From Oscillospiraceae bacterium (GTDB taxonomy: Bacteria > Bacillota > Clostridia > Oscillospirales > Acutalibacteraceae), in NCBI GenBank assembly GCA_015066105.1, contig SVOY01000001.1:1-64000 (forward strand): a stretch of 64,000 bases of DNA, read 5' to 3'. Each line of letters opens with the position of its first letter. Position 1 is the stretch's first letter. The notes under the pieces were generated by a model. The model had not been told where the DNA came from. It saw only the letters and a program-made list of their open reading frames with translations, and did not search any database. A program made the position numbers and the translations under genes. This document shows positions 5,185 through 53,057 of the stretch, one piece after another.

Positions 5185-5186
5185 TT

Positions 5187-31199: not shown

Positions 31200-32093
31200 A
31201 TGTTCGACAAAATTGTTGCATTTTTTATGGCAATCATCAACTTCTTTTTGGGCCTTTTCGGTCTTGGCGGAGTGGGCGGTCAGGAATATGACTGTCAGAC
31301 CTTTTTCGATATGGCCTACGGCACTCACGAAAGGCAGGTGGTTGACCTTTTTGTGCCCGAGGGTGCTTCGGGAGATTTAGGTCTTGTTCTGTTTATTCAC
31401 GGCGGTGCATGGATAGCCGGCGATAAGGAAAGCTACCTGAGCGGAATGAACTACGGCGCAACAAGCCTCGGCATTGCAACGGCATCGGTTAATTACCGCT
31501 ATATTTCAGAGGATGTTGACCTTCTTGACGTGCTTGACGATATTGACGCGGCTCTTGCCCAAATCAGGAAAAAGGGTGCCGAGGTAGGTGTAAACATCAA
31601 CAGGGTGCTGCTTACTGGCGACAGTGCAGGCGGCCACCTTTCATTGCTTTACGCTTATGCAAGAAAGAACAGTGCTCCCATTGCTCCCGTTGCGGTAATC
31701 AGCAATTCGGGACCCACAGACCTTTATGACGATAACTTTTATCACAACAATGCTCTCGGTAACGAGGCGGTAATCTGCGACCTTATGTCAAAGGCCTGCG
31801 GTCAGAGCTTCACCTACGAAGCCAGGGAGAGCGCAAAGCAGGCTCTTTACAGTGTTTCGCCCGTTTCTTATGTGAGTGCTGACTGTGTGCCCACCGTAAT
31901 CAATCACGGCACGGCAGATACGATTGTTCCCTTCTCAAACGCTGAGACCCTTGACGCTCTGCTTACACAGTACGGCGTTGAGCACGTGCTTAATGTTTAT
32001 GAGGGCTCAGACCACGGCCTTGATAAGGACGAGGATGCAAAGAACAGAGCCGACGAGCTTCTTTTCGGCTATATTGACAGATTTCTTAAATAA
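31200..32093 (+). CDS. Alpha/beta hydrolase (HSL/BD-FAE-like esterase) with Phe-rich N-terminal helix
   Basis: 297 residues. The oxyanion motif is HGGAW (residues 67-71), the nucleophile Ser142 is in GDSAGG, Asp is in HGTADTIVPF and His is in YEGSDHGL. It therefore hydrolyses esters, probably of acylated carbohydrates or lipids. Residues 1-22 form an amphipathic to hydrophobic helix (KIVAFFMAIINFFLGLFG) rather than a classical signal peptide; the same pattern recurs in several proteins of this region and may dock it at the membrane. GGAGGAAAAGCT precedes the ATG. A strong terminator follows. Confidence 0.88.
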   Translation: MFDKIVAFFMAIINFFLGLFGLGGVGGQEYDCQTFFDMAYGTHERQVVDLFVPEGASGDLGLVLFIHGGAWIAGDKESYLSGMNYGATSLGIATASVNYRYISEDVDLLDVLDDIDAALAQIRKKGAEVGVNINRVLLTGDSAGGHLSLLYAYARKNSAPIAPVAVISNSGPTDLYDDNFYHNNALGNEAVICDLMSKACGQSFTYEARESAKQALYSVSPVSYVSADCVPTVINHGTADTIVPFSNAETLDALLTQYGVEHVLNVYEGSDHGLDKDEDAKNRADELLFGYIDRFLK

Positions 32094-32111
32094 TTGCCGC
32101 AGACAAAAGTC

Positions 32112-32149
32112 GGGGCTGTAAAAAAACGGGAGTTTTTTACAGCCCCTTT
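32112..32149 (+). terminator. Terminator of the esterase gene
   Basis: Perfect 14-bp stem (32112-32125 with 32133-32146), then a T run. Confidence 0.85.
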
Positions 32150-32231
32150 GCTGTTTACGGCTTAAATTTATTGCATATGCTTTTGTGTTGTGATACAATA
32201 TACGGGTAGAATACCGCAAGGGGGTGTTACC

Positions 32232-33080
32232 GTGAAAAGAAGGATATCAAATATTGTTTTTATTGTAATTACAATTTTTCTGATTGTGGCAGTTACGGCT
32301 TTTTATTTTTACGATGTTTTATGCCTTAAGCATCCTTATACGGATAATCTGTTTAAGGCATTGTCGGTTGTGTGCCTGCTTATAGGTACACTTATAAGGC
32401 TTTTTAATGTTAAGGGAAGAAAAAGCCTTGAGATATATGAAAAATCCTACGCTGACGAATTAGGCTTTGCCTTTAAAAACAAAGCCTTTCAACGAAAAAA
32501 GCTTTTGTGTGCCTGCCGTTTGTATAACGAAGGAAATTACGATAAAGCACTTAAGTATTTGTTTGCGTTATTAAAGGAGGCGGAATTTGAAAGGGATGCT
32601 GTTCCCGTCTGGCTTTTTATTGCACTGTGTTATACGGATGCAGGTGTTAACGCACAGGCAATCAAAGCTTATTATCAGCTGTTACGGCTTGATCCCAACA
32701 ATGCACAGGTTCACAGCAATTTAGGCAGTCTGTTGGTTGCTGAGGGCGATTTTGAAGCGGCTTTGAAGCATTACAATGAATCTATTGAAATCAGACCCGA
32801 AAATTATTATGCATACATAAACAGAGCAAACTATTATTTCAGAATCAACGACTATGAAAATGCCGTTGCAGATGCCCGTAAGGCACTGAAATATAAAAAC
32901 AACGGTGTTGAGGCTGCTTCTTTGCTGACTGTTATTTATGCCTTGCTTGAAGACGATGAAAATAAAAGGTATTATTATCATCTGTCGATTACATCGGGAA
33001 AAAAGCCAAAGGACCTTGATGATGCCATAGAGTATTTTTTGAGTGAAAAAAACATTATCGAAGAGGAAGAGGAAGCGTGA
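32232..33080 (+). CDS. Membrane-anchored TPR protein
   Basis: 282 residues. Two membrane helices lie at about 10-28 and 40-55. After about residue 85 come TPR units, the clearest being VHSNLGSLLVAEGDFEAALK followed by HYNESIEIRPEN and YAYINRANYYFRINDYENAV. The tail is very acidic. TPR domains bind partner proteins. The start is GTG at 32232 behind AAGGGGGTG; the longer frame begins before this site. The stop overlaps the phosphatase start (GTGA), so TPR protein, phosphatase and hydrolase form a translationally coupled operon. Confidence 0.85.
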   Translation: MKRRISNIVFIVITIFLIVAVTAFYFYDVLCLKHPYTDNLFKALSVVCLLIGTLIRLFNVKGRKSLEIYEKSYADELGFAFKNKAFQRKKLLCACRLYNEGNYDKALKYLFALLKEAEFERDAVPVWLFIALCYTDAGVNAQAIKAYYQLLRLDPNNAQVHSNLGSLLVAEGDFEAALKHYNESIEIRPENYYAYINRANYYFRINDYENAVADARKALKYKNNGVEAASLLTVIYALLEDDENKRYYYHLSITSGKKPKDLDDAIEYFLSEKNIIEEEEEA

Positions 33081-33553
33081 AAAGAATAATGTTCGTCTGC
33101 CACGGCAATATCTGCCGCTCACCTATGGCGGAATTCATTTTAAAAAAAATGATAAATGAAAGCGGCCGGGAGGGGAATTTCTGCGTTGTATCTTCGGCAA
33201 CGAGCACCGAGGAAATATGGAACGGTGTCGGAAATCCCGTTTACCCGCCTGCAAAGGCCGAGCTAATGAAGCATGGTATTTCCTGCGACGGCAAGCGTGC
33301 TGTTCAGCTTAAAAAGAGTGACTATGATAAGTATGATCTTTTTGTTGCAATGGACAGTATGAATGTGCGTAATATTATGCGCATTTTCGGCAAGGATGAA
33401 AAGGGAAAGGTCTGTAAGCTTATGGATTTTACCGACCGCGGAGGCGACGTTGCAGACCCCTGGTACACACGCCGCTTTGATGTTACCTACAGGGACGTTT
33501 ATGACGGCTGTGAAGGACTTCTGAGTTATCTTGTAAAGGAGAATGATATATGA
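33077..33553 (+). CDS. Low-molecular-weight protein tyrosine phosphatase
   Basis: 158 residues with the P-loop CHGNICRS (Cys8 to Ser15) and the general acid in ADPWYT. It should remove phosphate from tyrosine, or arginine in some Firmicutes relatives, in cytoplasmic proteins. The start is GTG, overlapping the TPR gene, and the stop overlaps the hydrolase start, so the three genes are co-translated. No tyrosine kinase gene is nearby. Confidence 0.93.
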   Translation: MKRIMFVCHGNICRSPMAEFILKKMINESGREGNFCVVSSATSTEEIWNGVGNPVYPPAKAELMKHGISCDGKRAVQLKKSDYDKYDLFVAMDSMNVRNIMRIFGKDEKGKVCKLMDFTDRGGDVADPWYTRRFDVTYRDVYDGCEGLLSYLVKENDI

Positions 33554-36831: not shown

Positions 36832-39800
36832 ATGAAAAAAATGTTGAAAACAGGAAAGAAAACCCTGTCCGTCATTATGGCAATAATGATGCTTATGTCG
36901 GCATGGGTCTGGGTCGCACCGACTGAGGCCAGTGCGGCTACGGCGGGCAATTATAAAGTCAGGATTACCTGGTATAATGCTAATGATAAAAAGTATAGCA
37001 ATCACTTTGGAGGTACTGAAACCGAACAGGGTGCCCGTGCAGGTTTTATACTTTATTACAAATCAAACAATGGTACCGGTACCGAGAATAAAGTCTGGTG
37101 GGATTTAGGTTGGAATAACAATAGCGGTAAAGGCGCTATTTACGGTACGTATGTTTCAGGTTCAAAATCAACTGGTTGGACAGGCAGTTCAAAGGGTACA
37201 TATACTTGTGAAGCAACTATTGCCGGTTTCCCGACTGCTATGTTCGGTATGGCGGACAGTGACAACTTTACGAATACGGGTGAATATGATGTTACAAAAC
37301 TAGAGGTATATAGTAATGCTGACAGTTCATGGAAAACCCTTTGGGAAGGTACGGGACACACAAGTACTACTACAGAGTACAAGTATTGGAAACTGACTGC
37401 AACAGGTACTGGTGCAAATGGCTCCGGCGCAACTTCTGAAGCAGGTAACGATAGTAGCCATGGTAAAGTTTCCAGTACAACAGAAAATTGGAAATTCCCG
37501 ACTCCCACAACTGCCACTACTTGGTCAGGTGTATCTGCTATGACTTGTCCTAAAACAGGTACAGCAACTCAGAAGGTTAAGGTAATCGTAAATGACCAGT
37601 ACGGTGTACAGATGTTTACTCCTACCTGGTCAGTTAAGGGTAACGTTTGTGGAACAACAGGTATTTCAGTTGACCCGGCAACAGCAGATGAAACAACAAT
37701 AAAGCTTACAAACGCGGCAAATGTTGCTTCCAATGTTGATACACAGATTGGTACAATTACTGCAACCTGGGGGAATGCCGGTTCTCTTTCCGATACCTTT
37801 ACAATAACTGATACAACCTACGATGTTAAGTTCAGCTATGATGCAGTAAAAAACGAAACAAACGGAGCCGGTACATTCCCGTTCAAGGATTCTGCTAACA
37901 GTCCGACTGTCGAAACCAAGAATCATTTTCACGGTGATGCAGTAACAGGTATCCCTTCTCCCCAGCCTTATTATGACGAAGACAGCTATTATTATACCTT
38001 TAAGGGCTGGTCTGTAGACGGCGGTATAAATTTCCTTTCATCAAGCCAGATTCCTGTAGCTACAGCAGATAAAACATATACAGCTTATTATAACAGTGTA
38101 TATAAGCCTGCTGATTATACTGATCTTGATAAGGCTATAGCTGACGGTAAGACTATTCAGAATGATGCTGAATATACAAGTAAGTATACTGCCGCAAGCA
38201 GAGCAATTCTCAATCAGGCACTTACTGCTTTTCCTGAAAACTATAAAACTAAGTACGGTGTAGTTTCGCAGGATGTTATAGATTCGTTTGCTGATGCAAT
38301 TAATTCAGCTATCAGTGGTCTTACTTTAAATACCTATAATGTTATTTTCCTTGATGAATCAAATGCCATTCTCGAATTTTATACAAATGTGCAATACGAG
38401 GGTAGCGTTTCTGCTCCTCCGGATGAAGACGGTTATTACGACAGTCAGAAGCACTATACCTTTGCAGGCTGGACACTCGATAAAAACACCGATATAATTA
38501 CCGATGCTTACAACTCGGTAAAGCAGGACCTTTTTATTTATCCTATATATACTGCTGAGGCTCATAACTTCACAAAAACAGAAACCGTAACCTCAACCTG
38601 TATCCAGAAGGGTGCAACAAAGTACATCTGTGATTGCGGCTACAGCTATATCGACGGCGAAACGGATTACGGCTCACACGTATGGCCGGAGGATTACAAA
38701 ATAGATATTCAGCCCACATGCTCAACTGCAGGTCAGAAGTCAAAATACTGTACAGAATGCGGTGTTCAGGGTGAAATTGTTGTAATCCCTGCTTTAGGTC
38801 ATCAGTGGGGTACAGTGTCTCCGCTTGCTCCTGCAACCTGTGAAAACAGCGGTATCAATACAAGACTCTGTGATGCTTGCGGCGTTTGTGAGCATACTCT
38901 TGTTCCTGCAACAGGTCACACTTATGAAGTGAAAACTGTTGCTGCAACCTGCACAGTAAAGGGCTATGATGAATACACATGTAAAAACTGCGGTCACTCC
39001 TACAGAGATTACAATGTAGATATGCTTGACCATAATTACAGCACCGAAGAAATTCTCGCAGCTCCTGCTTGTAATATTCCCGGTGTTAAGAAACTCACTT
39101 GCGATTGCGGTCATATTAAAACTGAATCAATCCCTGCACTTGAGCACGATATCGGTGATTGGGTTACCGTTGTTGAGCCTACCTGCACGGGCAAGGGCTA
39201 TCAGACAAAGACCTGCTCACTTTGCGGTAATGTAATTGCAGAAAATACACTCGATGCACTTGACCACAATTATGTAACAAAAACCGTTGTAGCTCCCACT
39301 TGCACAAGCAAGGGCTACACACTTGAAGAATGTGACAGAGACGGTTGCAGCGCACAGAGAGTTGTAGACGAAAAAGAGGCTCTTAACCACGCATGGACTT
39401 CAACCACTCACGAAGCTGACTGTACTCACGGCACCTACATTGAGCACATTTGTGCAAACGACTCTGCCCACAACTATATTGAATATGTAAGCGGCTCAAC
39501 CGTTCTTCCTCACGATTTCACAGGCACAGAAACCGTTATAAGTGCCGCTACCTGTGAGACTGACGGCAAAAAGACCGTTCAGTGTAAGTATTGCGATGCT
39601 ACAACTGAGGTTATCCTTCCCAAGCTCGGCCATGCTTACGGCGATTGGCAGGTTGTGAAAGAAGCAACCAACAGTGAAGACGGTCAGTGGAAGCGCGTTT
39701 GTGCAAACAATGCAGAACACGTTGAATATATCACAATTCCCAAGGGCGGTCATGCATGGGATAGCGGTACAGTTACAGAGGCTGCAAGCTGTGAAGCAAC

Positions 39801-42800
39801 AGGTACAATGGTCTATAAGTGTACTGCACATACCGATTGCGGTGTTACTCTTGAAGTAACAATTCCCGTTACTCAGCACACCGTTGCACAGAAGGTAACA
39901 GCTGCAACCTGTACAGAAAAGGGTAAGGTTGAGGCATACTGCTCAGTGTGCGACGCTGAGTGTGCAAATCCCTTCAGCACAACGGAAACTCCCGTTGTTC
40001 CCCACTCCCTTGATAACGGAACAAAGGTTGAAGCAACCTGCACCACAAGCGGCTATACTCTTTACAAGTGTATTGCTAACGACTGTGGCTTTGAATATAA
40101 AGAATATAATGAGGATGAAAAGGCAAAAGCTCACACCTATGTTGCCACGGAAACAAATGCGGCAACCTGCACAAATGAAGGTCTTATGACCTACACCTGT
40201 GCTTGCGGTGCAAGCTATACCGAAAGAATTCCTGCAACCGGACACAGCTATGTTGAAAATGCAGAGAAAGCAACAGCGGCAACCTGCACGGAGCTTGCTA
40301 CAAAGACCTATGAGTGTTCCTCCTGCGATGAAGCTTATGTTGAACATTACGGTACACTCGCCGCTCACAAATTTGAGACATTGGTAAAAACCGTACCTGC
40401 AACAAATGATTCACTCGGCTACGAGGAAAGAAAATGTGGTTGCGGTCTTACTCAGATTACAATACTTGAAGCAACGGGCACTCACGTTTTCAACGAGAAA
40501 ATTGAAAGCGAATGTGTTGCACCCACTTGTACCGAAAACGGCACAGATGTTTATAAATGTACAGCTCACGATAATTGCGATGCAAAGACAAGTGTTGTTG
40601 TGCCGAGACTCGGTCATACAGTAACTGCTGTTTATAATGCTCCCACCTGCATTGCACAGGGAAGCTCAGAGGCTTACTGTACAAACTGTAAAACTACGGT
40701 TTCTTCAACCGTAATCCCTGCAACAGGTATTCACGATTTCAGCGGCACCGGCGTAAAGGTTGATGCAACCTGTACTGCTGCGGGCACAATGACCTACACC
40801 TGTCTCACCGACGGCTGTAATGAAACCAAGGTTGAAGCAATCCCTGCAAAGGGTCACGACCTTACAACAACCGTAACCGATGCAACCTGCACCGGAAAGG
40901 GCAGTGTTGTAATTACCTGCTCACGCTGTGACGACCCCTCAGTTGAAAAGACTTATGAGCTTGCCGCAAAGAACCACAGCTGGAATAACGGCGAGAAAAC
41001 AGTTGCTCCCACTTGCACAACGGACGGCACAATGACCTACACCTGTACTGCTTGTAACGATACAAAAACAGAGAGTATCCCTGCAAAGGGTCACAGCTGG
41101 GGTGAATGGGTTAAAACTGATGCAACAACCACAGAGGACGGCTCATGGTCACGCACCTGCTCAAACTGTAATGACACTGAAAATCTTGTAATCCCCAGAG
41201 GACATAACCTTGTTAAGGACACTGAAAATAGTAAAGCAGCAAGCTGTAAGCAGGAAGGTAAAGAAATTTACATCTGTGAAAGCCATACTGATTGCGGTGT
41301 TAAGATTGAAGTAACTCTCGATAAGCTTCAGCACACCGTTGCTCAGAGAGAGATTGAAGCAACCTGCGAGGCAGAGGGTAAGGTTGAGGCTTACTGTGCA
41401 GTATGTAACGACGTTCTCAGCACAGAAGAAATCCCCGTTAAGGCACACAACTATGTTGCAGGCGAAGCAGTAGCTCCCTCCTGCACCACAAGCGGATATA
41501 CACCCTACACCTGCTCATGCGGTAAAACATATAATGTATACGATGCTTCCAAGCCTGCAACCGGTCACAGTCTCGTAGAAGGCGCATCAACTGCAAACTG
41601 CACCAAAGCCGGCAAAATGACACTCACCTGCTCTGTATGCAGCAACTACACAACAACCGTAGATGTTCCCGCCCTCGGTCACAATTATGTTGAGGATGCA
41701 TCAGCCGCAACAGAGGCAACCTGCGCCGCACCCGCAACAAAGACCTACAAGTGCTCACGTTGCGCTGATTCCTACACAATTTCAGTAGGCGATAAGACTT
41801 CCGAGCATACCTGGGGTAAAGAGACGGTTGTCGAAGCCGCTACTGCAACCTCACTCGGCTACAAGACGGTTGAATGTAGTGTCTGCGGCCAGATTAAGGC
41901 TGAGACTATTCCTGCAACCGGTGACCATGAATTTACAGTAGAAACAACTGATAAGAAAGACCCGACCTGCACACAGGACGGTTATATCGTATATGCCTGC
42001 GCTACAAATCATAGTTGCGGACTTACTTCAAAGGTAACTGTTCCTGCAACAGGTCATAAGGAGGACCTTGACTACAAGGCAGCTACCTGCGGTGAAGCAG
42101 GCTACGCAAGAATGGTCTGCACCGTTGATGGTTGCAATGAAGTTCTTTCAGAAGAAGTAATTCCTGCCCTCGGTCACCTTTACGGCGAAGGCACGGTTAC
42201 AAATGCAACCTGCACAGCTGAAGGAAAGATAGAATACAGCTGTACACGTACGGGCTGTGGCGCAACTCACGAAGCTGTGATTGCAACCAACTCAAACGCA
42301 CACCGGTATAAAACCGTTGTAACTCCTGCGACCTGCTATAAAGAAGGTTCCGTTGTAACAAAGTGCGCTCTTTGTGATGACGAGATGACAAACGTGGATC
42401 TCCCGATGATTGAGCACACCTGGAATGATGGCGAAATCAAGCAGGGCGATGCCGCAACCTGCACGGCTGACGGTAAAAAGACCTATACCTGTACTGTAGA
42501 AAACTGCGGTGCAACAAAGACAGAAACAATTTCCAAGCTCGGCCACGATTGGGGTGCCTGGACTGTAACAAAGGCATCAACCAACACAGAAAAGGGTGAA
42601 ATGACACGCACCTGTTCGAGAGGCTGTACTGAAAAGGTTGAAATCCCTGCAGGCGGTCATAATCTTGTTGTTTCATCAAGCACAGCTGCAACCTGCACTG
42701 CCGGCGGCTCAATAACCTATACCTGTGATACTGTTCACGAAGGCGGAGTAGCATGCGGAATTACAATTACCGTAACACTCAATAAGCTTCAGCATGAGCT

Positions 42801-45800
42801 TGAAACCACGAAGAAGGATGCAACCTGCACAACTCCCGGTGAGGTTGTAACCAAGTGCACAAAATGTGATACACTCACAATCACAACAGAAATTCCTGCA
42901 ACGGGTCACTCATACACAGGCTCTGTTACAAAGGCCGCAACCTGCACCGAAGAGGGTGTAAAGACCTACACCTGCTCAAAGTGCAGCGACAGCTACACAG
43001 AAGTGCTTCCCAAGCTTCAGCACGTATATATAAAATCAGATGAAACCGCTCCCACCTGTACTGCAAGCGGCTACACGACCTATAAGTGTACCGGCAACAA
43101 CTGCACATCAAGCTATGTTGTTATCACAAGTACTGCAAAGGGCCACAGTTTTGATGAAAGTGTTGCCGCTAATGTAACAACAGTTGCTCCGACCTGCACA
43201 GCCGACGGCTCAAAGACTGTTAAGTGTAAGGATTGCGACGAAAAGAACATTGTAGTTCTTCCCAAGAGCGGACACAGCTATGTAAAGGTTGAGGCAGTAG
43301 CGGCTGATTGCACAACTGCAGGTACAGAGGTTTACACCTGTGCTTGCGGCGAAACCTATACCAAGTACATTGAGGCTGCAAAGGGTCACACCTACGGAGA
43401 GTGGGAAATCGTAACCGCCGCAACGGCAGACAAGAACGGCGTTCAGAAGAGAAGCTGTGCCTGCGGTGATATTGAATACGGTCTTATTTCTCCTATCGGT
43501 AATCATAACTTTGTGGAGGAAATCACCAAAGCCGCAACCTGTACAACAGAAGGCCTTAAGACCTTTACCTGTGATGCTCATACAAATTGCTCGGCAAACT
43601 ACACTGAGACAATTCCTGCAAAGGGTCATAAGGAAACTCTTGTTTACACTGCCGCAACCTGCGAAGCAGCGGGTAGTACAAGGATAACTTGCGATACCTG
43701 TAAGATTACAATCGGTGAGGAAACAACAATTCCCGCACTCGGTCACCTCTTTAACGGCGAGGGCGTGTATAAGGCTGCAACCTGTGTTGAAAAGGGCAGT
43801 ATGACTTATACCTGTCAGCGTGAAAATTGCAACGAAACTCACGTAACAGAAATTGCAGCAGCTCCCACAGCTCATAAGTTCAAGAGAACCGTTGATGATG
43901 CAACCTGTAAGGAAGCAGGCTCAATAACAGTAATCTGTGAAAATGACGGTTGCAATTATGAAGAAGTTACAACCCTTCCCATGCTTCAGCATAACTGGGG
44001 AGCTTGGACGGTAGATACCGCCGCAACAAACAGCACTGACGGTAAGATGAAGCGCGTTTGCTCAAACGGCTGTGAAGAATACTGCGTAATTCCTGCAGGC
44101 GGACATGAATTTGATACAACAAAGCCCGCTTCAACCACAGCCGCAACCTGTAAGCAACAGGGTACGGCAACCTACAGCTGTAGCGCACATACAGACTGCG
44201 GTGTTACAATTACGGTAAATACGGGCTATGCAGAGCACACCTACGAAACAAAGGTTGTTGAAAGCTGCACAGCCAACGGCTCTGTAATCACTTACTGTAC
44301 GGTTTGTGCTAAGGAGTTTGCAAAAATTGAGCTTGGTAAGGCTCAGCATACATATGGCGCCGGTGTGGAGACCGCTCCCACCTGTACTGCAAGCGGCTAC
44401 ACGACCTATACTTGTGAAAAGTGCGGTTATAGCTACAATGAAATAGGCGCAGATGCAAAGGGCCACACCCTTGAAAAGACCGTTATAAACGGCAGCTGCA
44501 CTAAGGACGGCTCAGTGGTTCTTTCCTGTGAGGAATGTGACTATGAGGTTACAGTTGATGTTCCTGCACTCGACCACGATTACACGAAGATAAGCTCAAC
44601 CGACGCAACCTGCGCTGCAGCCGCAACTGAAACCTACAAGTGCTCACGCTGTGATGCAAAGTACACAGTTTCCGTAGGTGATAAGCTCACGGGAGAAAAT
44701 GCTCATACCTGGGGCGCATGGTCAGTTGTTATTGAGGCAACCTATACAACTCTCGGCTGTGAGTCAAGGGTCTGCTCCGTATGTGGCAAGCTTGAGGTAA
44801 GAACAGTTGAAGCAACGGGCGACCACTCCTTTACAAACGGCGAAATTGCCGATTCAAAACAAGCAACCTGCACAAAAAACGGATATATAACCCGCAAGTG
44901 TGCGGTTCATGATGATTGCGGTCTTACCTCAACAGAGATTATTGCCGCAACGGGTCACACTGAAACAGCAATCCCCGCAGTTGAAGCAACCTGCACAGCC
45001 CCCGGCTCATCAGCAGGCTCAAAGTGTACTGTGTGCGATGAGGTTATTGTTGCTCCCGTTACACTTCCCGCTCTCGATCATGCCTGGGGTAATGAAAAGG
45101 TAACTCCTGCAAGCTGTAAGGAAGCAGGTAAGATTGAATATACTTGTACACGTACGGGCTGTACTGCAACACATACAGTTGAAATTCCTGTTGACGGTGA
45201 TGCTCATAATTACATTACAACTGTTCATCAGGCCAACTGCACCGATGACGGCTCAGTTGTAACAAAGTGCTCACTTTGCGGCGATACAACAACTGAGACA
45301 ATCCCTGCAAAGGGTCACACATTCACGGGCGCAGAAACAATAGTAGACAAAGCAACCTGTACTCTTGACGGCTTAAAGACCATCAAATGTGCAAGCTGTG
45401 ATGCAACAACTGAGGTTATCATTCCCAAGCTCGGTCATAAGATGGTAGCAGGCGTTGCAGTTGAAGCAACCTGCACCTCAAGCGGATACACACCCTACAC
45501 CTGTGAAAACGATTGCGGTGAAAGCTATAAGGTATACGATGCCACTGTTAAGGAGCACAGCTATGTTCAGGTTGAGGACTCATCAACCGCAACCTGTACT
45601 GACGGCGGTACCGTTACACTCAAGTGCACCTGCGGTGACACAATCGAGGCAGTAGTTCCTGCTCTCGGTCATAGCTACGGCGAATGGACAGTTATCAATC
45701 CCACAGCCGAAACTGAAGGCTCAAAGACAAGAGAATGCGGCAGATGCCATGTTACCGAAACCGTAATCCTTCCCAAGCTCGGACACGAAATGGTTAAGGA

Positions 45801-47643
45801 TGTCAATGCATCAGCTGCTCCCACATGTACAACAGAGGGTACAGATGTTTATGTATGTACTACTCATACGGGCGATGCCGCCTGCGGCTACACCTATAGC
45901 GTAACAGTTGCCGCAAAGGGTCACTCCTACGGTGAGGGCGTTGTAACAGAACCGGCAACCTGTACAGAAAACGGTGTTAAGACATTCACCTGTACAGCTG
46001 ACGGCTGCGAGGCAAAAACAACAGAGGTTATTCCCAGAACGGGTCACACACTTTCAACAACCGTAAATGAAGCAACCTGTAAGGCTGCAGGTTCAGTTGT
46101 AACCAAGTGTGCAAGCTGTGATTATTCTGTTGAAAAGCCTCTTGAACAGAAGCCTCACACAATCAGCGTTTCCTATGCATACCCGAGCTGCAGCAGTGAA
46201 GGTTATGTTAAGGAAGCATGCGATAAATGCGATTATGAAAAAATCATCAGCACAATTCCTGCACTCGGTCACTCCTACACAGGTGATGAAACAGTAATCA
46301 ATGGTGCAACCTGCCTTGAAAAGGGCGAAAAGACCGTCAAGTGCTCACGCTGTGATGCAACAACAACCGTAGAAATTCCCGCAACAGGACATAACTACGT
46401 TGCAACAGAAACTGTTCCCGCAACCTGCACAGAAAGCGGATATATCCTCCGGGCTTGTGATAACATGGATTGCGAAGCAAGCTACAAGGAGCTTACCTCA
46501 AATCCCAACGGTCACACATGGAAGACAACTGCAGAAAGCGAAACAAAGGCAACCTGCGAGGCTGACGGCGTTGCAGTTTACAAGTGTCAGTTCTGCGAGG
46601 CAACAAATGAGGTTATAACTCCCAAATTCGGTCACTCTTGGGGCGAATGGTCAATAACCAAGGCTCCCACGGCAACCGATGAGGGTGAACAGACAAGAAC
46701 CTGTATTCGCGGCGGATGCAAGGAAACCGTTGCTATTCCCGCTCTCGGCGAAAGCGCAACCTACACCGTAAAATTTGTTGTAAACGGCGAGGTTATCTAT
46801 ACTCAGACGGTCAACTACCTCGGCTCGGCAACGGCTCCCGCTGTAGCCGATAAGGCTCCCGACTCAAAGTATCATTACAGCTTCGGTTGGGACAGAGACT
46901 TCTCAACAGTTACGGGCGACCTTACGGTTAACGGCGTATATACTCCCGTAAGCCACACCTACGGCGAATGGGTGGTTGACAAGACCGCCGATTGCAGGAA
47001 TGAGGGTCTCAGACACAGAGAATGTGACTGCGGCTATGTTCAGCAGGAGACTGTTGCAAAGCTCGCACACGATTTCTCCGAAATTCTTGAAGAGAAGGCC
47101 GCAACCTGTACCGATAACGGCTACAAGGTGGTTGTGTGTAAAAACTGCGGCGATACCGAGACTCAGACAGTCAAGAAGCTCGGCCACTCAATGACCTACT
47201 ATCAGGGCTATGCCGCAACCTGCGACACCGACGGTGTGGCAAGCCACTACAGCTGCTCACGCTGCGGTAAGGACTTTGAAGACAGAGCAGGTAACAAGCA
47301 GCTTACAACTACGGTCATCACAAAGAAATACCATACCTACATTGTTGTTGAGGGCAGTGCCGCCACCTGCACAAATGACGGCGTAACAGATTACAGATAC
47401 TGCACCTCCTGCGGCTACACTCAGCAGCCCCAGACAATTCCTGCAACGGGTCACGCTGACGTGAACAACGATAACTCCTGCGATAAGTGCGGTGCTACCT
47501 ATATGCAGGGCGGTAATATAATATGCTCCTGCAGCTGTCATAAAAACGGCTTCTTCAATGAGCTTATCTATAAGATTCTCTCCTTCTTCTGGCGTCTGTT
47601 CGGTACTAACAAGAGCTGTGAATGCGGAAAGGTTCACTATTGA
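36832..47643 (+). CDS. Giant secreted Cys/His-repeat surface protein (3603 residues)
   Basis: A signal peptide occupies residues 1-36 (ASA cleavage). Residues 38-200 form a beta-rich domain, about 225-320 is Ig-like, and InlB-like blocks lie near 320-400 and 483-572 (YTFKGWSVDGG, YTFAGWTLDKN), with a FIVAR-like helical segment between them. From about 575 come some 72 units of about 40 residues with the pattern ATC..xG...Y.C..C......IPA.GH; the Cys, CxxC and His could form one zinc site or disulfides per unit. Another InlB-like block is near 3300. The tail (3558-3603) has CSCHKNGFF...LFGTNKSCECGKVHY, shared with the 213-residue protein at 52226. Probable role: surface fibre, adhesin or metal-binding scaffold. 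Confidence 0.9.
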   Translation: MKKMLKTGKKTLSVIMAIMMLMSAWVWVAPTEASAATAGNYKVRITWYNANDKKYSNHFGGTETEQGARAGFILYYKSNNGTGTENKVWWDLGWNNNSGKGAIYGTYVSGSKSTGWTGSSKGTYTCEATIAGFPTAMFGMADSDNFTNTGEYDVTKLEVYSNADSSWKTLWEGTGHTSTTTEYKYWKLTATGTGANGSGATSEAGNDSSHGKVSSTTENWKFPTPTTATTWSGVSAMTCPKTGTATQKVKVIVNDQYGVQMFTPTWSVKGNVCGTTGISVDPATADETTIKLTNAANVASNVDTQIGTITATWGNAGSLSDTFTITDTTYDVKFSYDAVKNETNGAGTFPFKDSANSPTVETKNHFHGDAVTGIPSPQPYYDEDSYYYTFKGWSVDGGINFLSSSQIPVATADKTYTAYYNSVYKPADYTDLDKAIADGKTIQNDAEYTSKYTAASRAILNQALTAFPENYKTKYGVVSQDVIDSFADAINSAISGLTLNTYNVIFLDESNAILEFYTNVQYEGSVSAPPDEDGYYDSQKHYTFAGWTLDKNTDIITDAYNSVKQDLFIYPIYTAEAHNFTKTETVTSTCIQKGATKYICDCGYSYIDGETDYGSHVWPEDYKIDIQPTCSTAGQKSKYCTECGVQGEIVVIPALGHQWGTVSPLAPATCENSGINTRLCDACGVCEHTLVPATGHTYEVKTVAATCTVKGYDEYTCKNCGHSYRDYNVDMLDHNYSTEEILAAPACNIPGVKKLTCDCGHIKTESIPALEHDIGDWVTVVEPTCTGKGYQTKTCSLCGNVIAENTLDALDHNYVTKTVVAPTCTSKGYTLEECDRDGCSAQRVVDEKEALNHAWTSTTHEADCTHGTYIEHICANDSAHNYIEYVSGSTVLPHDFTGTETVISAATCETDGKKTVQCKYCDATTEVILPKLGHAYGDWQVVKEATNSEDGQWKRVCANNAEHVEYITIPKGGHAWDSGTVTEAASCEATGTMVYKCTAHTDCGVTLEVTIPVTQHTVAQKVTAATCTEKGKVEAYCSVCDAECANPFSTTETPVVPHSLDNGTKVEATCTTSGYTLYKCIANDCGFEYKEYNEDEKAKAHTYVATETNAATCTNEGLMTYTCACGASYTERIPATGHSYVENAEKATAATCTELATKTYECSSCDEAYVEHYGTLAAHKFETLVKTVPATNDSLGYEERKCGCGLTQITILEATGTHVFNEKIESECVAPTCTENGTDVYKCTAHDNCDAKTSVVVPRLGHTVTAVYNAPTCIAQGSSEAYCTNCKTTVSSTVIPATGIHDFSGTGVKVDATCTAAGTMTYTCLTDGCNETKVEAIPAKGHDLTTTVTDATCTGKGSVVITCSRCDDPSVEKTYELAAKNHSWNNGEKTVAPTCTTDGTMTYTCTACNDTKTESIPAKGHSWGEWVKTDATTTEDGSWSRTCSNCNDTENLVIPRGHNLVKDTENSKAASCKQEGKEIYICESHTDCGVKIEVTLDKLQHTVAQREIEATCEAEGKVEAYCAVCNDVLSTEEIPVKAHNYVAGEAVAPSCTTSGYTPYTCSCGKTYNVYDASKPATGHSLVEGASTANCTKAGKMTLTCSVCSNYTTTVDVPALGHNYVEDASAATEATCAAPATKTYKCSRCADSYTISVGDKTSEHTWGKETVVEAATATSLGYKTVECSVCGQIKAETIPATGDHEFTVETTDKKDPTCTQDGYIVYACATNHSCGLTSKVTVPATGHKEDLDYKAATCGEAGYARMVCTVDGCNEVLSEEVIPALGHLYGEGTVTNATCTAEGKIEYSCTRTGCGATHEAVIATNSNAHRYKTVVTPATCYKEGSVVTKCALCDDEMTNVDLPMIEHTWNDGEIKQGDAATCTADGKKTYTCTVENCGATKTETISKLGHDWGAWTVTKASTNTEKGEMTRTCSRGCTEKVEIPAGGHNLVVSSSTAATCTAGGSITYTCDTVHEGGVACGITITVTLNKLQHELETTKKDATCTTPGEVVTKCTKCDTLTITTEIPATGHSYTGSVTKAATCTEEGVKTYTCSKCSDSYTEVLPKLQHVYIKSDETAPTCTASGYTTYKCTGNNCTSSYVVITSTAKGHSFDESVAANVTTVAPTCTADGSKTVKCKDCDEKNIVVLPKSGHSYVKVEAVAADCTTAGTEVYTCACGETYTKYIEAAKGHTYGEWEIVTAATADKNGVQKRSCACGDIEYGLISPIGNHNFVEEITKAATCTTEGLKTFTCDAHTNCSANYTETIPAKGHKETLVYTAATCEAAGSTRITCDTCKITIGEETTIPALGHLFNGEGVYKAATCVEKGSMTYTCQRENCNETHVTEIAAAPTAHKFKRTVDDATCKEAGSITVICENDGCNYEEVTTLPMLQHNWGAWTVDTAATNSTDGKMKRVCSNGCEEYCVIPAGGHEFDTTKPASTTAATCKQQGTATYSCSAHTDCGVTITVNTGYAEHTYETKVVESCTANGSVITYCTVCAKEFAKIELGKAQHTYGAGVETAPTCTASGYTTYTCEKCGYSYNEIGADAKGHTLEKTVINGSCTKDGSVVLSCEECDYEVTVDVPALDHDYTKISSTDATCAAAATETYKCSRCDAKYTVSVGDKLTGENAHTWGAWSVVIEATYTTLGCESRVCSVCGKLEVRTVEATGDHSFTNGEIADSKQATCTKNGYITRKCAVHDDCGLTSTEIIAATGHTETAIPAVEATCTAPGSSAGSKCTVCDEVIVAPVTLPALDHAWGNEKVTPASCKEAGKIEYTCTRTGCTATHTVEIPVDGDAHNYITTVHQANCTDDGSVVTKCSLCGDTTTETIPAKGHTFTGAETIVDKATCTLDGLKTIKCASCDATTEVIIPKLGHKMVAGVAVEATCTSSGYTPYTCENDCGESYKVYDATVKEHSYVQVEDSSTATCTDGGTVTLKCTCGDTIEAVVPALGHSYGEWTVINPTAETEGSKTRECGRCHVTETVILPKLGHEMVKDVNASAAPTCTTEGTDVYVCTTHTGDAACGYTYSVTVAAKGHSYGEGVVTEPATCTENGVKTFTCTADGCEAKTTEVIPRTGHTLSTTVNEATCKAAGSVVTKCASCDYSVEKPLEQKPHTISVSYAYPSCSSEGYVKEACDKCDYEKIISTIPALGHSYTGDETVINGATCLEKGEKTVKCSRCDATTTVEIPATGHNYVATETVPATCTESGYILRACDNMDCEASYKELTSNPNGHTWKTTAESETKATCEADGVAVYKCQFCEATNEVITPKFGHSWGEWSITKAPTATDEGEQTRTCIRGGCKETVAIPALGESATYTVKFVVNGEVIYTQTVNYLGSATAPAVADKAPDSKYHYSFGWDRDFSTVTGDLTVNGVYTPVSHTYGEWVVDKTADCRNEGLRHRECDCGYVQQETVAKLAHDFSEILEEKAATCTDNGYKVVVCKNCGDTETQTVKKLGHSMTYYQGYAATCDTDGVASHYSCSRCGKDFEDRAGNKQLTTTVITKKYHTYIVVEGSAATCTNDGVTDYRYCTSCGYTQQPQTIPATGHADVNNDNSCDKCGATYMQGGNIICSCSCHKNGFFNELIYKILSFFWRLFGTNKSCECGKVHY
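38560..47520 (+). repeat. About 72 tandem Cys/His units inside the giant gene
   Basis: Counted by eye from the translation. Most units have Cys in ATC; about ten have Thr or another residue there and recur roughly every sixth unit, usually after a WGEW/WGAW/YGDW-type linker. Runs of twelve units recur in the same order (for example units 10-21, 22-33, 34-45, 46-57), giving a higher-order period near 1.4 kb. An InlB-like block interrupts near the end. Confidence 0.8.
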
Positions 47644-47824: not shown

Positions 47825-49027
47825 ATGTCAGTTATTTTACAAGGCTTTTTTTACAGAATACTCAGCTTTTTAATGAGTATTGCAATGCTTTTCGGTATTT
47901 CCTGTGACGGCTTCAAGGCTGATTCTTCCGAATGGAATACCAACTATAAATTTGTTTTTGTTCACGGTCTTTCAGGCTGGGGCAGCTATGACTCCGTAAA
48001 TAAGATTATGCCTTATTGGGGTATGTTCGGCGGTGATCTAATGGCTTACCTCAATGATAAGGGCTTCGATTGCTATGCCGCCTCTGTTTCGCCCTCATCA
48101 AGCGCATGGGACAGAGCCTGCGAGCTTTACGCTCAGCTTACGGGTACTGTTGTTGACTACGGCAAGGCACACAGCGAAAGCTGCAACCACGACCGCTACG
48201 GTGAGGATTTCACAGGCAGAGCTCTTATTGACTCCTTCAGCAGTGAGGATAAAATCAACCTTCTCGGTCATTCCTTTGGCGGAGCAACGGTAAGAATTTT
48301 TGCTCACCTTATGGAAAACGGCAGTGCAGAGGAAATTGCTGCTACCGATGCAAATGACCTTTCCGATTTCTTCAAGGGCGGAAAAGGGGACTATATTTAC
48401 AGCGTAACGGCTCTTGCCGCACCCCATAACGGCACTACGGCTTACTGCATTTCTACCGATGATGTGCCTGCCGATGAGGATGCCACGCTTTTTGACACGG
48501 TCAAGGTGAAAATACAGAATTCACTGTCAAATATGATAGGCCCTGCAACTCAGGACAGGGAAGAAAACAAGGCACAGTGGGATAACGCCGCCTACGATAT
48601 GTACATTGACAATGCCCTTGAGCTTAACGGTAAAATCACAACCCTTGAAAATGCTTATTATTTCTCCGTGCCCTGCAGTGCAACGGTGCAGAATGAAAAC
48701 GGCACATATTCACCCGTTGAAAGCAGAATGGAAAGCCTTTTTGTAAGCTCCTCAAAGGCAATGGGTGCCTTCACCGGTGTAACCGAGGGTGGCTTTGTAA
48801 TTGACGAGAGCTGGCAGGAAAATGACGGTCTTGTAAATACAATTTCCGCAAAAGCTCCCTCGTCTTCACCCGTTACAGATTATGACAAGGGCAACGTGCA
48901 AAAGGGTGTGTGGAACATTATGCCCACCTATGACGGCGACCATATGTCACTTCAGGGCGGTATGACAAAGCCCAACGACATAAAAAGCTTTTATCTTGAG
49001 CACCTTTCAATGATAAATTCACTGTAA
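47825..49027 (+). CDS. Family I.5-like lipase with Phe-rich N-terminal helix
   Basis: 400 residues. FVFVHGLSGWG carries the oxyanion residue, GHSFGG holds nucleophile Ser150, and a His near the end (DGDHMS) is likely catalytic. The spacing and the TALAAPHNGTT loop follow the staphylococcal/Geobacillus-type lipases. The N-terminus QGFFYRILSFLMSIAMLFGI is an amphipathic to hydrophobic helix, possibly an uncleaved anchor or unusual signal; ISC at 25-27 is a poor lipobox. AAAGGAGAAAATATT precedes the ATG. It follows the giant gene after a terminator and has its own promoter. Confidence 0.88.
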   Translation: MSVILQGFFYRILSFLMSIAMLFGISCDGFKADSSEWNTNYKFVFVHGLSGWGSYDSVNKIMPYWGMFGGDLMAYLNDKGFDCYAASVSPSSSAWDRACELYAQLTGTVVDYGKAHSESCNHDRYGEDFTGRALIDSFSSEDKINLLGHSFGGATVRIFAHLMENGSAEEIAATDANDLSDFFKGGKGDYIYSVTALAAPHNGTTAYCISTDDVPADEDATLFDTVKVKIQNSLSNMIGPATQDREENKAQWDNAAYDMYIDNALELNGKITTLENAYYFSVPCSATVQNENGTYSPVESRMESLFVSSSKAMGAFTGVTEGGFVIDESWQENDGLVNTISAKAPSSSPVTDYDKGNVQKGVWNIMPTYDGDHMSLQGGMTKPNDIKSFYLEHLSMINSL

Positions 49028-49115: not shown

Positions 49116-49144
49116 TTGACAAATTTAATTTTGCAATATATAAT
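49116..49144 (+). promoter_or_regulatory. Perfect consensus promoter of the peptide genes
   Basis: TTGACA (49116-49121), 17 bp, TATAAT (49139-49144): an exact sigma-A consensus, so expression of the two tiny genes downstream should be very high. Confidence 0.88.
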
Positions 49145-49195: not shown

Positions 49196-49291
49196 ATGGA
49201 TTGGGATACCATTAAGGCTGTTCTTGCAGAAATCGTTGCTTATTTCAAGAAGGTATTTGAGTACTTCGAATTCATCCCCGCAGAGAAATAA
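49196..49291 (+). CDS. Amphipathic peptide 1, 31 residues
   Basis: MDWDTIKAVLAEIVAYFKKV followed by FEYFEFIPAEK. AAAGGAGG lies 7 bases before the ATG and a perfect promoter is 52 bases upstream. The whole peptide can form one amphipathic helix with aromatic and aliphatic residues on one face; there is no signal sequence. The size and amphipathicity recall phenol-soluble modulins, but the net charge is negative and there is no sequence match. It belongs with the second peptide gene 52 bases downstream. Confidence 0.75.
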   Translation: MDWDTIKAVLAEIVAYFKKVFEYFEFIPAEK

Positions 49292-49343
49292 TTAAGTTAT
49301 CTTAATTAAATTTGAAAATATTTGTAATAAGGAGGATATAGCC

Positions 49344-49460
49344 ATGTTTGAGACATTTGAAGTAATGTATGCTTATCTTTGGGAACTCATCTACAACATT
49401 CTTGCTATCTTCGGTATCGAAAAGGACGAAGAAGGCAACCTTGTAGAAAAGGATGCATAA
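49344..49460 (+). CDS. Amphipathic peptide 2, 38 residues
   Basis: MFETFEVMYAYLWELIYNIL followed by AIFGIEKDEEGNLVEKDA. AAGGAGG lies 8 bases before the ATG. The core LWELIYNILAIFGIEK closely resembles the tail helix of the giant protein (LIYKILSFFWRLFGTNK). It is hydrophobic first and acidic last, with no signal peptide. It is co-transcribed with peptide 1 from the consensus promoter, and a strong terminator ends the unit. The function is unknown; I infer a partner or competitor for the shared helix. Confidence 0.75.
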   Translation: MFETFEVMYAYLWELIYNILAIFGIEKDEEGNLVEKDA

Positions 49461-49493
49461 TTTTACTTAATTTATTAAACAATTGTTTAAAGG

Positions 49494-49528
49494 CACAACC
49501 TGTCCGTAACCGGATGGGTTGTGTTTTT
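49494..49528 (+). terminator. Terminator of the peptide 1-2 operon
   Basis: CACAACC and TCCG pair with CGGA and GGTTGTG (49494-49506, 49511-49523), then seven T. Confidence 0.88.
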
Positions 49529-49541
49529 TTATTTGCAAATA

Positions 49542-49568
49542 TTGACTTTTTTTCAATAATATTATAAA
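49542..49568 (+). promoter_or_regulatory. Probable promoter of peptide 3
   Basis: TTGACT (49542-49547) and TATAAA (49563-49568) with a short 15-bp spacer; an alternative -10 lies a few bases away. Confidence 0.5.
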
Positions 49569-49615
49569 ATTATAAACACACAGCAGTGTGTGAATATTAT
49601 GAGGAGGTAACAGCA

Positions 49616-49726
49616 ATGAACGATTTTTTCGCAATGCTTGAAGAAGCAATCAAAAAGATTTTTGACATTCTTTCCGGTATTTTCAAGATTTTTGAAAACA
49701 ACGAAGAAGGAGAAGCAACAGAATAA
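49616..49726 (+). CDS. Amphipathic peptide 3, 36 residues
   Basis: MNDFFAMLEEAIKKIFDILS followed by GIFKIFENNEEGEATE. GAGGAGG lies 8 bases before the ATG and a terminator follows 18 bases after the stop, so it is a complete, separate unit. Residues 3-26 make an amphipathic helix rich in Phe and Ile, and the tail is acidic. No signal peptide is present. It has the same design as peptides 1 and 2 and resembles the internal helix of the protein at 51063. Confidence 0.75.
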   Translation: MNDFFAMLEEAIKKIFDILSGIFKIFENNEEGEATE

Positions 49727-49743
49727 GTGCTTCTGAAGTGAAG

Positions 49744-49770
49744 CGCCCTCTTGCAGGGCGTTTTCTTTTG
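49744..49770 (+). terminator. Terminator of peptide 3
   Basis: CGCCCT/AGGGCG stem with loop CTTGC and a T-rich tail. Confidence 0.8.
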
Positions 49771-50936: not shown

Positions 50937-50990
50937 CATAAAAACATTTGTGCAAAATAGCTAATTTTTGTACAAATTATTAAATTTATG

Positions 50991-51019: not shown

Positions 51020-51062
51020 TCTTTTATGGATTTCCAAATACTAAATTTTAAGGAGAATCATT

Positions 51063-52205
51063 ATGAAAAAGAAAAGAATTATGTCAACAGTAAGCCTTAT
51101 GCTTGCAATTATTATGCTCTTCGGCACGGTTTCCGTTGCCGCCGTTGATGTAACATACACAACTGTACCCCAGACAACAACTGAACCTGTAGTTGAAGAA
51201 GAAAAGTCGGATGATTATTGGGAAGGCTACTATGACGGCTACGATGAAGGCTACAGTGATGCTGAAAGCGAGGACTACGACAGCGGATATGAAGACGGCT
51301 ACTATGACGGTATGGGTGAAGGATATTTAGACGGCTACTATCAGGGTTACTACGACGGTGTGAACGCTTTCAGAGAGCCTTCGGTTTTTGAAAAGGTTGA
51401 AAGCTTTTTCTACGAGCTCAAGTACAGAATTGAAGATTTCTTCTACAGAATTCATAATTTTTTTGAAATGCTTTTCAAAATAGGTGACTATGCACCTGCC
51501 ACGCCAATCGATCCCGAGGCAGACTTCATTCCCGACGGTTCACAGCCTAACCTTGCAGGTGATGAGGCTGCAGCTGCTCTTTGTGAAGAATTTAACGCTC
51601 TCATCGAAGACTTCAAGGAAATTGATGAAGCCGTTGCTATAACAAAAAAGGTTGACGTTGCAATAACGGCAAAAGATCTTCCTTCTGCTGTGCAGGGCAT
51701 TGTAAATGAGGTTATCGAGCAGTTTGTAATTGATGATGCAACAACAAACAATTATGTTGCAGGTGAATATGCATACGAGGTACAGTCAACACAGCTTTAT
51801 CCCGAAGGTCTTGCCGAGGCAACAAAAACCGTAAATGCTGACGGCACAACGGATTACAAGTTTGTTGTTATTGCTGAGGCTGCTTATTTTGACGGACATT
51901 ATACCGAAGGTGTAAAGTATGAAAACGGTCAGTTTTATTCTGGCGTTGGTCTTCAGCACGATCTTGTTGCCGACACTCTTTATATTGAATATGCTGACCT
52001 TGACCCTGTAACAATTACATCTGCTGAAATTTACTATCCCGGTGCAACAATCACTGCAAAGACCGATGCCAATGGCAGACTTATTGCTTATGATGTGGAT
52101 ATGCCCGTAAGCGGCACCGGCGAGGCAAAGATTTCTGTAATTGATATCAAGGCAAGCCTTGAAGGCTACAGGAATGAAGGTATCACAGCTGTATACGCTG
52201 ACTGA
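51063..52205 (+). CDS. Exported protein with Gly-Tyr-Asp repeats and Phe-rich helix
   Basis: 380 residues. A signal peptide (about 1-27, VSVAAV) is followed by a short Thr/Glu linker and residues 50-98 built of GYYDGYDEGYSD-like repeats, which match the DGxxxGYxxGY pattern of Yae1-type repeats. Residues about 106-140 form an amphipathic helix (VESFFYELKYRIEDFFYRI, then HNFFEMLFKIG). The rest, 150-380, is a beta-rich domain of unknown family. The middle helix matches the pattern of the small peptides encoded at 49.2-49.7 kb. The gene is followed after 20 bases by the 213-residue Cys/His protein, so they share an operon. AAGGAGAATCATT is the ribosome site. Confidence 0.8.
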   Translation: MKKKRIMSTVSLMLAIIMLFGTVSVAAVDVTYTTVPQTTTEPVVEEEKSDDYWEGYYDGYDEGYSDAESEDYDSGYEDGYYDGMGEGYLDGYYQGYYDGVNAFREPSVFEKVESFFYELKYRIEDFFYRIHNFFEMLFKIGDYAPATPIDPEADFIPDGSQPNLAGDEAAAALCEEFNALIEDFKEIDEAVAITKKVDVAITAKDLPSAVQGIVNEVIEQFVIDDATTNNYVAGEYAYEVQSTQLYPEGLAEATKTVNADGTTDYKFVVIAEAAYFDGHYTEGVKYENGQFYSGVGLQHDLVADTLYIEYADLDPVTITSAEIYYPGATITAKTDANGRLIAYDVDMPVSGTGEAKISVIDIKASLEGYRNEGITAVYAD

Positions 52206-52225
52206 AATAAAAGGAGAAAAATAAA

Positions 52226-52867
52226 ATGAAGAAAATAGTCAGCTTAGCTCTTGCACTGCTTGTGCTTATGTCAACAGTTGTGCTTACGGCAAGCGCTTCA
52301 ACAATAAAAGATGGCATGAGTAATTGCCCCAGTTGCGGAAAATATTATCCTGTAACCTATGTTGAACCGTCCTGCACAAAAGCTGCTCATTACAGAATCT
52401 TTTGTACTGATTGCAGAGATCACTATGAATTTAAATTTGATGAAACCAAGCCTGCGCTCGGTCATGATGAAGCTGTTGAGGTTGTTAAGGCAACCTGTAT
52501 GGAACGCGGCTATGACAGGCATTACTGCAAAAGATGCGGAGAAACCTTTTATCGGAAAAATGTAGTAGAGCCTTACGGTCACGATTATGTGCAGTATGAA
52601 AGAGATCCTTCATGGGCGAAGGATGAGTGCAGATATAAAAAAATCTGCAAACGTTGCGGAAACGACGGCTCGATGATTTACCCGGGCGGTCACGCTCATA
52701 TAAACGAGGATAACAAGTGTGTTCGATGCAATTTTGATTTCGAAACGGAATGCGGTCATTTTTGTCATAAGGACGGCTTTTTAGGCTTCATATATAAAAT
52801 TGCAAGAGTATTCTGGGCTATATTCAAAACAAACGAGTACTGCGAATGTGGTAAACTTCATTGGTAA
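52226..52867 (+). CDS. Exported Cys/His protein, miniature of the giant repeat protein
   Basis: 213 residues. A signal peptide ends near ASAS (residue 25). About three repeat units follow: VEPSCTKAAHYRIFCTDC...ALGH, VKATCMERGYDRHYCKRC...PYGH, and a variant with CRYKKICKRC...PGGH. The tail CHKDGFLGFIYKIARVFWAI continues FKTNEYCECGKLHW and aligns with the last 39 residues of the 3603-residue protein. The shared tail suggests the same anchoring or binding site at the surface. It lies 20 bases after the Tyr/Gly-repeat gene behind AAAGGAG. Confidence 0.85.
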   Translation: MKKIVSLALALLVLMSTVVLTASASTIKDGMSNCPSCGKYYPVTYVEPSCTKAAHYRIFCTDCRDHYEFKFDETKPALGHDEAVEVVKATCMERGYDRHYCKRCGETFYRKNVVEPYGHDYVQYERDPSWAKDECRYKKICKRCGNDGSMIYPGGHAHINEDNKCVRCNFDFETECGHFCHKDGFLGFIYKIARVFWAIFKTNEYCECGKLHW

Positions 52868-52898
52868 TTAAAAATAATTTACAAAAGGAGGAATAACG

Positions 52899-53057
52899 AT
52901 GTTGGAAAAATTCGCAATTTTTGTACTTGAATGGTTTACTAAGCTTTTATGTACACCGTTTCTTGTATTTTTTGTAATGTTGCCGGCAAGCATAATCAGC
53001 GGTGAAGAAGCAGCACGAGACCTTGCTGAATCATTTTTCGGCTCCTGGTCCGAATGA
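52899..53057 (+). CDS. Small hydrophobic peptide 4, 52 residues
   Basis: MLEKFAIFVLEWFTKLLCTP, then FLVFFVMLPASIISG, then an acidic amphipathic tail EEAARDLAESFFGSWSE. AAAGGAGG lies 8 bases before the ATG. Residues 5-34 could span the membrane. It lies 31 bases after the Cys/His protein gene with no terminator between, so it belongs to that operon, and a strong terminator follows. It shares the Phe-rich helix style of the other small peptides but is more hydrophobic. Confidence 0.7.
   Translation: MLEKFAIFVLEWFTKLLCTPFLVFFVMLPASIISGEEAARDLAESFFGSWSE

Follow-up and report, generated by a model that had tools for sequence, protein, structure and literature searches.

A Cys/His-bracketed helix module at the C-terminus of secreted proteins in one genus of the Acutalibacteraceae, as sampled

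Positions 31,200 to 53,057 of a 64,000-nucleotide stretch of an Oscillospiraceae bacterium genome (GenBank assembly GCA_015066105.1, contig SVOY01000001.1, positions 1 to 64,000 of the forward strand; hereafter the window) contain two + strand open reading frames (ORFs) for secreted, Cys-rich repeat proteins that end in the same short module, a basic amphipathic helix set between Cys/His clusters. The larger (36832..47643) encodes 3603 amino acids, including 219 Cys and 107 His, in Cys-rich repeats that are often ~40 residues apart (50 matches to a repeat-start pattern); in the parts scanned, namely residues 1-1600 together with the final 547, no Pfam family reached its cut-off. Its C-terminal module (CSCSCHK..IYKILSFFWRLFGTN..CECGKVHY; 47524..47640, +) is followed directly by the stop codon. 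The smaller protein (213 residues; 52226..52867), also built of Cys-rich repeats and without a Pfam family above cut-off, ends in CGHFCHK..FIYKIARVFWAIFKTN..CECGKLHW (52751..52864, +), again immediately before the stop codon. The two tails are 47% identical across 62 columns. Their Cys and His residues coincide on either side of the helix, and on this alignment they are homologous over a module larger than the helix.

The first-pass annotation of this region had described a single Phe-rich helix pattern common to at least eight of its proteins, and had named a profile search as the test that could refute it. All seven segments quoted there were recovered on the + strand by sequence lookup, in the tails of the giant protein (47563-47613) and the 213-residue protein (52787-52837), at the N-termini of an esterase (31230-31262) and a lipase (47855-47899), within a Tyr/Gly-rich protein (51447-51485) and in two small peptides, here called B (49386-49424) and C (49658-49699); its unquoted ‘peptides 1 and 4’ were taken to be small peptide A (49196-49291) and a 52-residue ORF (52899-53057). 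Profiles, however, single out only the two tails among the window ORFs. A hidden Markov model (HMM) of the whole module, built from 26 rows taken from other genomes only, scored the giant protein at 67.6 bits and the 213-residue protein at 64.4, against 6.9 for the Tyr/Gly-rich protein, 5.3 for peptide B, 4.8 for the esterase, 4.6 for peptide C, 3.3 for peptide A, 1.2 for the lipase and 0.2 for the 52-residue ORF. With an HMM of the helix only (same 26 rows), 437 of the 639 window ORFs of at least 28 residues received a score; the tails reached 35.1 and 26.9 bits and the third-ranked ORF 5.0. Over 1560 ORFs of the loci examined, 78 of them carriers, this model also scored 811 non-carriers, the highest being three variant tails (28.6, 18.5 and 10.7 bits) followed by two esterase starts (9.8 bits).

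The idea of one bare helix module in at least eight window proteins draws some support from composition shuffling (2000 shuffles of each of eight picked segments), in which the residue arrangement was seldom equalled in the esterase (0 of 2000 shuffles scoring as well), peptide B (3), Tyr/Gly (14) and lipase (15) segments, as in the two tails (0 each); for peptides A and C the order was not above chance (1583 and 277 shuffles as good). These counts flatter the segments, since they were hand-picked. Set against whole-module scores of 6.9 bits or less for the seven other ORFs scored, and against the loss of the Phe motif in orthologues of the Tyr/Gly-rich protein, the idea is almost certainly wrong, and its strong form, one helix shared by eight proteins, is ruled out by the profile scores. 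A true module is thus recognised by these profiles in two window proteins, the remaining segments being classed as general amphipathic or hydrophobic helices of separate kinds: the N-terminal helix of an esterase family, the start segment of a lipase, a linker helix that is not conserved, and a cassette of leaderless amphipathic peptides, three in number. The recurrence proposed for N-terminal, internal and stand-alone positions is accordingly not supported, and the suggestion of a docking, membrane-binding or polymerising module survives for the giant and 213-residue tails, whose module is shared and genus-wide, and not for the other segments. The Cys/His brackets that define the module had no place in that description.

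The module spans ~40 residues and consists of C-x-[CH]-x-C-H, a 24-25-residue basic amphipathic helix rich in Phe and Trp, and C-x-C-G-x-x-H-Y at the stop codon. In all, 78 distinct tails were gathered by the pattern C-x3-C-H, 18-40 residues, C-x-C-x3-H, provided that at least 25 in-frame residues preceded it and that fewer than 20 followed the last His. Position 3, which this pattern leaves free, is Cys in 53 tails and His in 25, with no other residue. Gly follows C-x-C in 76 of the 78, the spacing between the brackets is 24 residues in 46 and 25 in 27, and 72 end exactly one residue past the last His, the final residue being Tyr in 62, Trp in eight, Phe in one and others in seven. A scan with the pattern unrestricted by position, across all frames of the DNA covered at that point, gave 78 matches, none more than 20 residues from a stop.

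Between the brackets the mean hydrophobic moment is 0.60 (0.33 when shuffled), with its peak at 100 degrees, and the mean net charge of the helix is +3.9 over the 78 tails. Lys or Arg forms a stripe at -15 (62/78), -12 (43/78), -8 (64/78) and -5 (41/78) relative to the second bracket, and a wide Phe/Trp/Tyr/Ile face has aromatic residues at -16 (72/78), -10 and -9 (68/78 each) and -6 (69/78), with Phe itself fixed at set positions in 66 and 69 of the tails. A 19-residue Kyte-Doolittle mean of 1.6 is reached by two tails only, the other 76 being too polar for a membrane-spanning helix, so that the module helix is not membrane-spanning in appearance. Two carriers, L008/L013 (G000:C8:29501; 806 residues) and L090 (818 residues), continue for 14 residues past the last His in what reads as a second Phe-rich end (FFAKLFGNA and FLGKLFGRG, respectively). 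Divergent tails of the form C.C.CH-helix-CC..YG or ACDC were also seen, in L012 (638-835), L010 (G000:C17:100062) and L009 (G000:C21:122206); these, one of which (L012) lies in a Clostridia genome, perhaps mark a wider superfamily of the module.

A profile of the two window rows gave ten matches in the window’s own genome (G000) at E<=1, eight of them clear (<=2.7e-8) and two weak (0.0016 and 0.008). The eight clear copies terminate open frames that differ widely from one another; one of the eight, at C10:411043, belongs to an orphan frame of 99 codons that lacks a usable start. With a nine-row query the module was found at E<=1e-3 in all 34 genomes of the genus (own genome included), in 1-22 copies each. 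A 34-row query had no match among other genomes sampled from the order (0 of 344, E<=1e-6) or from the phylum (0 of 298, E<=1e-3), at most 21 and 24 candidates, respectively, being scored per genome; the eight clear own copies were recovered both times. Searched against genome contigs, the two-row query returned two loci, L012 and L011 (Ruminococcaceae bacterium RUG13155), the tail of the latter being the same as in genome G001. The plasmid search gave no module match. As sampled, these searches place the module in one genus.

None of the three libraries searched holds the module. Not one of the 78 members matched any NCBIfam model at E<=0.01; Pfam at the same threshold gave weak matches alone (zf_C2H2_13 for two members, Trypan_PARP for one and DUF1922 for one; best E 0.0022), and PHROGs a single weak member match (0.0054). 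No publication on the module or on the peptide cassette described below was recognised among open-licence full texts, in which the motif is not word-searchable, so that absence from print is weakly supported.

A signal-peptide-like start, judged by a hydropathy rule and not by SignalP, is present in 52 of 55 carriers; the exceptions are two carriers truncated at a contig end and the orphan frame. Pfam was run on 39 of the 55 (the window carriers were scanned separately), identifying BspA-type LRR_5 repeats in 17, alpha/beta hydrolases (PETase, dienelactone hydrolase or esterase) in three, C-type lectin domains in two, Flg_new in two (one also with a GBS_Bsp-like domain), DUF6273 in two, and a phosphoesterase and a rhamnosidase in one each; one carrier had a sub-cut-off match alone and ten had none. 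In several carriers a Pro/Asp/Glu-rich linker directly precedes the module. The carriers thus look like unrelated proteins, apparently exported by the Sec route. That Cys-rich repeats precede the module in both window carriers and in others would suit a metal-binding folding cap that closes such repeat proteins and has no role in localisation. We regard this as improbable, as the module also ends LRR, lectin, glycosidase and esterase proteins, several times behind a linker, and a cap has no need of a basic aromatic helix.

The explanation preferred here, for which the case seems about evenly balanced, is a metal-stapled helix tail that would keep secreted proteins at the cell surface. The Cys/His clusters would hold a metal, stapling both ends of the helix; this would most likely be zinc, because of the exchange between Cys and His at position 3, a ligand position, in which the module resembles zinc-binding mini-domains in its presumed way of working. 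The basic aromatic helix would then rest on the outside of the membrane, or on an anionic polymer of the envelope, and so retain the carrier. Retention at the surface is suggested by the C-terminal position, the nature of the carriers and the helix. The basic stripe of the helix, flanked by Trp and Tyr, points rather to an interface, and its strictly kept Phe positions rather to a partner or to self-packing.

Several observations weigh against a stapled surface tail, or against its confinement to one genus. The six ligands are invariant in the 78 rows because the gathering pattern imposes them, and eight variant tails with ligands missing or spacing changed were excluded (L009, L010, L012, L022, L029, L037, L084 and L100). 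The conservation of Phe is tighter than simple binding to a membrane would require and speaks for a specific partner or for self-packing. A survey of neighbours (326 ORFs from 49 loci, in 237 clusters) found no recurrent receptor or processing enzyme; beyond the carrier cluster itself, the neighbours present in at least three of the 49 loci were a regulator read as XRE-type (nine) and a lipase-like secreted protein (five). The genus restriction is stretched by one marginal match to the nine-row query among 25 non-genus genomes (G038, of another family; 5.9e-4), by the divergent L012 tail in a Clostridia genome, and by one of 50,697 phage records, Oscillospirales phage PV036458.1, which has the module at its very end. 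In this record two proteins (L265:8437-12144 and 1084-7557) have identical module tails ending HYDAPVFG; their genes may be those of the host, retained because the prophage was trimmed loosely.

Sorting tails at the cell surface are a known kind, and the module could instead be such a signal, cut by an enzyme of its own or joined by it to the envelope, in the manner of LPXTG, PEP-CTERM, GlyGly-CTERM and MYXO-CTERM. Its C-terminal place, with up to 22 copies per genome on unrelated carriers that have signal-peptide-like starts and linkers, follows the same logic as GlyGly-CTERM, in which a short homology domain closes as many as thirteen proteins of one genome, usually without relatedness outside that region (PMC3237569). 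According to the same paper, GlyGly-CTERM, LPXTG and PEP-CTERM tails share an architecture of motif, transmembrane helix and basic cluster. The module is like these in being C-terminal on many unrelated exported proteins, but lacks a membrane-spanning helix (2/78 reaching 1.6) and a basic end, and differs from the GlyGly-CTERM/rhombosortase system in its Cys/His brackets around an amphipathic helix, in that no enzyme was found and in its occurrence in one genus as sampled. MYXO-CTERM is nearer in having an invariant Cys in a C-terminal tag of dozens of surface proteins, yet this tag, of the myxosortase system, combines a transmembrane helix with a cytoplasmic end rich in Arg (PMC11980579), neither of which is found in the module. 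Sortase, the one enzyme searched, is present in 34/34 genus genomes and also in 22/25 others, and thus does not track the module, and the eight LPXTG-like tails in the loci examined are all at sortase loci. An enzymatic sorting signal appears rather unlikely; a module that replaces sortase, also considered, was rejected because sortase is present in all 34 genus genomes. SHOCT is likewise short, mostly C-terminal and joined to many domains (PMC3581485), but is widespread in bacteria; the module, by contrast, is confined to one genus as sampled, has Cys/His brackets and sits on exported proteins. The main text of a surface-display review (PMC5817068) uses neither ‘amphipathic’ nor ‘monotopic’.

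A further secreted Cys-rich protein, here termed CysX (loci L235-L264), is mostly 150-180 residues long and ends in a Phe-rich amphipathic helix; three members have no Pfam family. Full-length matches (E<=4e-19) occur in 33/34 genus genomes and in none of the 25 others, and a genome usually has a single strong copy; the non-genus genomes gave one 40-residue match (7.8e-4, in G056). The copy in the window’s own genome (L247; G000:C21:42389-42826) lies away from the peptide cassette, on C21, and no peptides were read downstream of it. CysX would be the candidate for a genus-wide receptor if the module were a dockerin-like docking tag that binds a specific partner rather than membrane or wall, a scheme in keeping with the conservation of the helix face at identity level and with the presence of CysX and module in the same genomes. 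Simple vertical descent inside a genus would, however, also produce an equal span, and the genes read on the downstream side of CysX are non-carriers. We consider such a receptor possible but unlikely.

The lipase gene (47825..49027, +) lies directly upstream of three short tandem genes on the same strand, each with its own ribosome-binding site, that encode amphipathic, leaderless peptides. A promoter-like site (TTGACA-17-TATAAT, 12/12; 49116..49144) precedes peptide A (31 residues; 49196..49291) and peptide B (38 residues; 49344..49460), which are followed by a terminator-like hairpin (49489..49528); a second promoter-like site (TTGACT-17-TAAAAT, 10/12; 49542..49570) precedes peptide C (36 residues; 49616..49726), with another terminator-like hairpin after it (49740..49764). 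The background for such signals in the stretch is 15 promoter-like sites, versus 6.1 in shuffles, and six terminator-like ones, versus 1.8. The moments of A, B and C are 0.47, 0.36 and 0.65, equalled by 40, 32 and 0 of 1000 shuffles, respectively. Profiles of A and B are similar (hhalign 95.5%), and B matches C weakly (17%) and the tail module weakly (33%, across 16 columns including a gap of four residues), each peptide profile having just three rows. In six peptide pairs changes are concentrated at third codon positions, and the nonsynonymous rate (dN) is below the synonymous rate (dS) in the four pairs with computable dS.

The three peptides occur in the same order behind the same giant-lipase pair in G002, and behind CysX in G003; the cassette (49196-49726) was also seen in loci L193, L194, L235-L242 and L249. 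By reading, A, B and C follow CysX rather than a lipase in nine of the 30 CysX loci, some of which are cut by contig ends; a stricter script filter found three peptides in seven of the 30 and two or more in nine. Peptide profile matches (E<=1e-3) were obtained in 18/34 genus genomes and 0/25 others (best 0.098), although four of the 18 (G001, G010, G012 and G013) have one lone 46-49-residue frame that may not belong with the peptides. As a query alone against 59 genomes (E<=0.1), peptide C found itself, G002 (1.6e-6) and, weakly, G003 (0.06) and G058 (0.038), the last outside the genus. In NCBIfam, peptides A and B and five peptides of relatives had no match, and C an insignificant one (0.04) to another family. 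The peptides look like real genes of a separate system with its own family, likely missed by gene callers. A tie to rplU was examined and rejected, the cassette not being upstream of rplU in the 27 relatives’ loci read (two more were unparsable).

The nearest described case found is that of LspU in staphylococci, where the gene of this small amphipathic protein adjoins a lipase gene and LspU traps lipases on the surface of the cell (PMC12607899). Peptides A-C resemble LspU and the phenol-soluble modulins of staphylococci in being small, amphipathic and encoded beside a lipase, and the modulins also in being leaderless helices from tandem genes. The window lipase has a match below cut-off to a YSIRK-targeted lipase model (NCBIfam NF047351, 1.7e-60, 205 bits, cut-off 650; its only NCBIfam match at E<=1); it also matches Pfam PF24708. 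They differ in having no family match and in that the cassette follows CysX, not a lipase, in the nine loci noted above, and the parallel is best taken as one of layout and not of homology.

Other segments at the locus have their own histories. The N-terminal hydrophobic helix of the esterase (31200..31271, +; ORF 31200-32093) is not the module; its start, MFDKI.AFFM.II.FF..LFG, is conserved in an esterase family of the genus’ own. The hydrophobic segment at the N-terminus of the lipase is likewise its own start segment; the single orthologue read, from G002, keeps a start of similar kind. In the Tyr/Gly-rich protein (51063-52205), the internal amphipathic helix FYRIHNFFEMLFKIG (51447..51485, +) resembles the module by eye and was rejected as a copy; the closest orthologues (L100-L103) keep the helix and its amphipathic character, not the Phe motif. 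The hydrophobic 52-residue ORF lies directly after the 213-residue module protein and has no NCBIfam match. About 2.5 kb before the region, a frame at 26989-28650 reads, from its translation, like a large serine recombinase.

Stapled tails, a CysX hub and three acidic leaderless helix peptides that complete or regulate the assembly might together form a surface system of the genus’ own, in which lipases, glycosidases, lectins and giant repeat proteins would be held outside the cell without sortase or cohesin-dockerin pairs; as a whole this scheme is speculative and rather improbable. The module would open the surface proteome of this genus, which has at least 34 species, to study from sequence: tail-bearing proteins can be listed from a genome and predicted as surface-acting. 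If the metal staple is true, it would be a retention tail without a membrane-spanning segment or sortase motif, small enough to serve as a tag. The cassette would extend lipase-associated amphipathic small proteins beyond staphylococci, in genes short enough for gene callers to miss.

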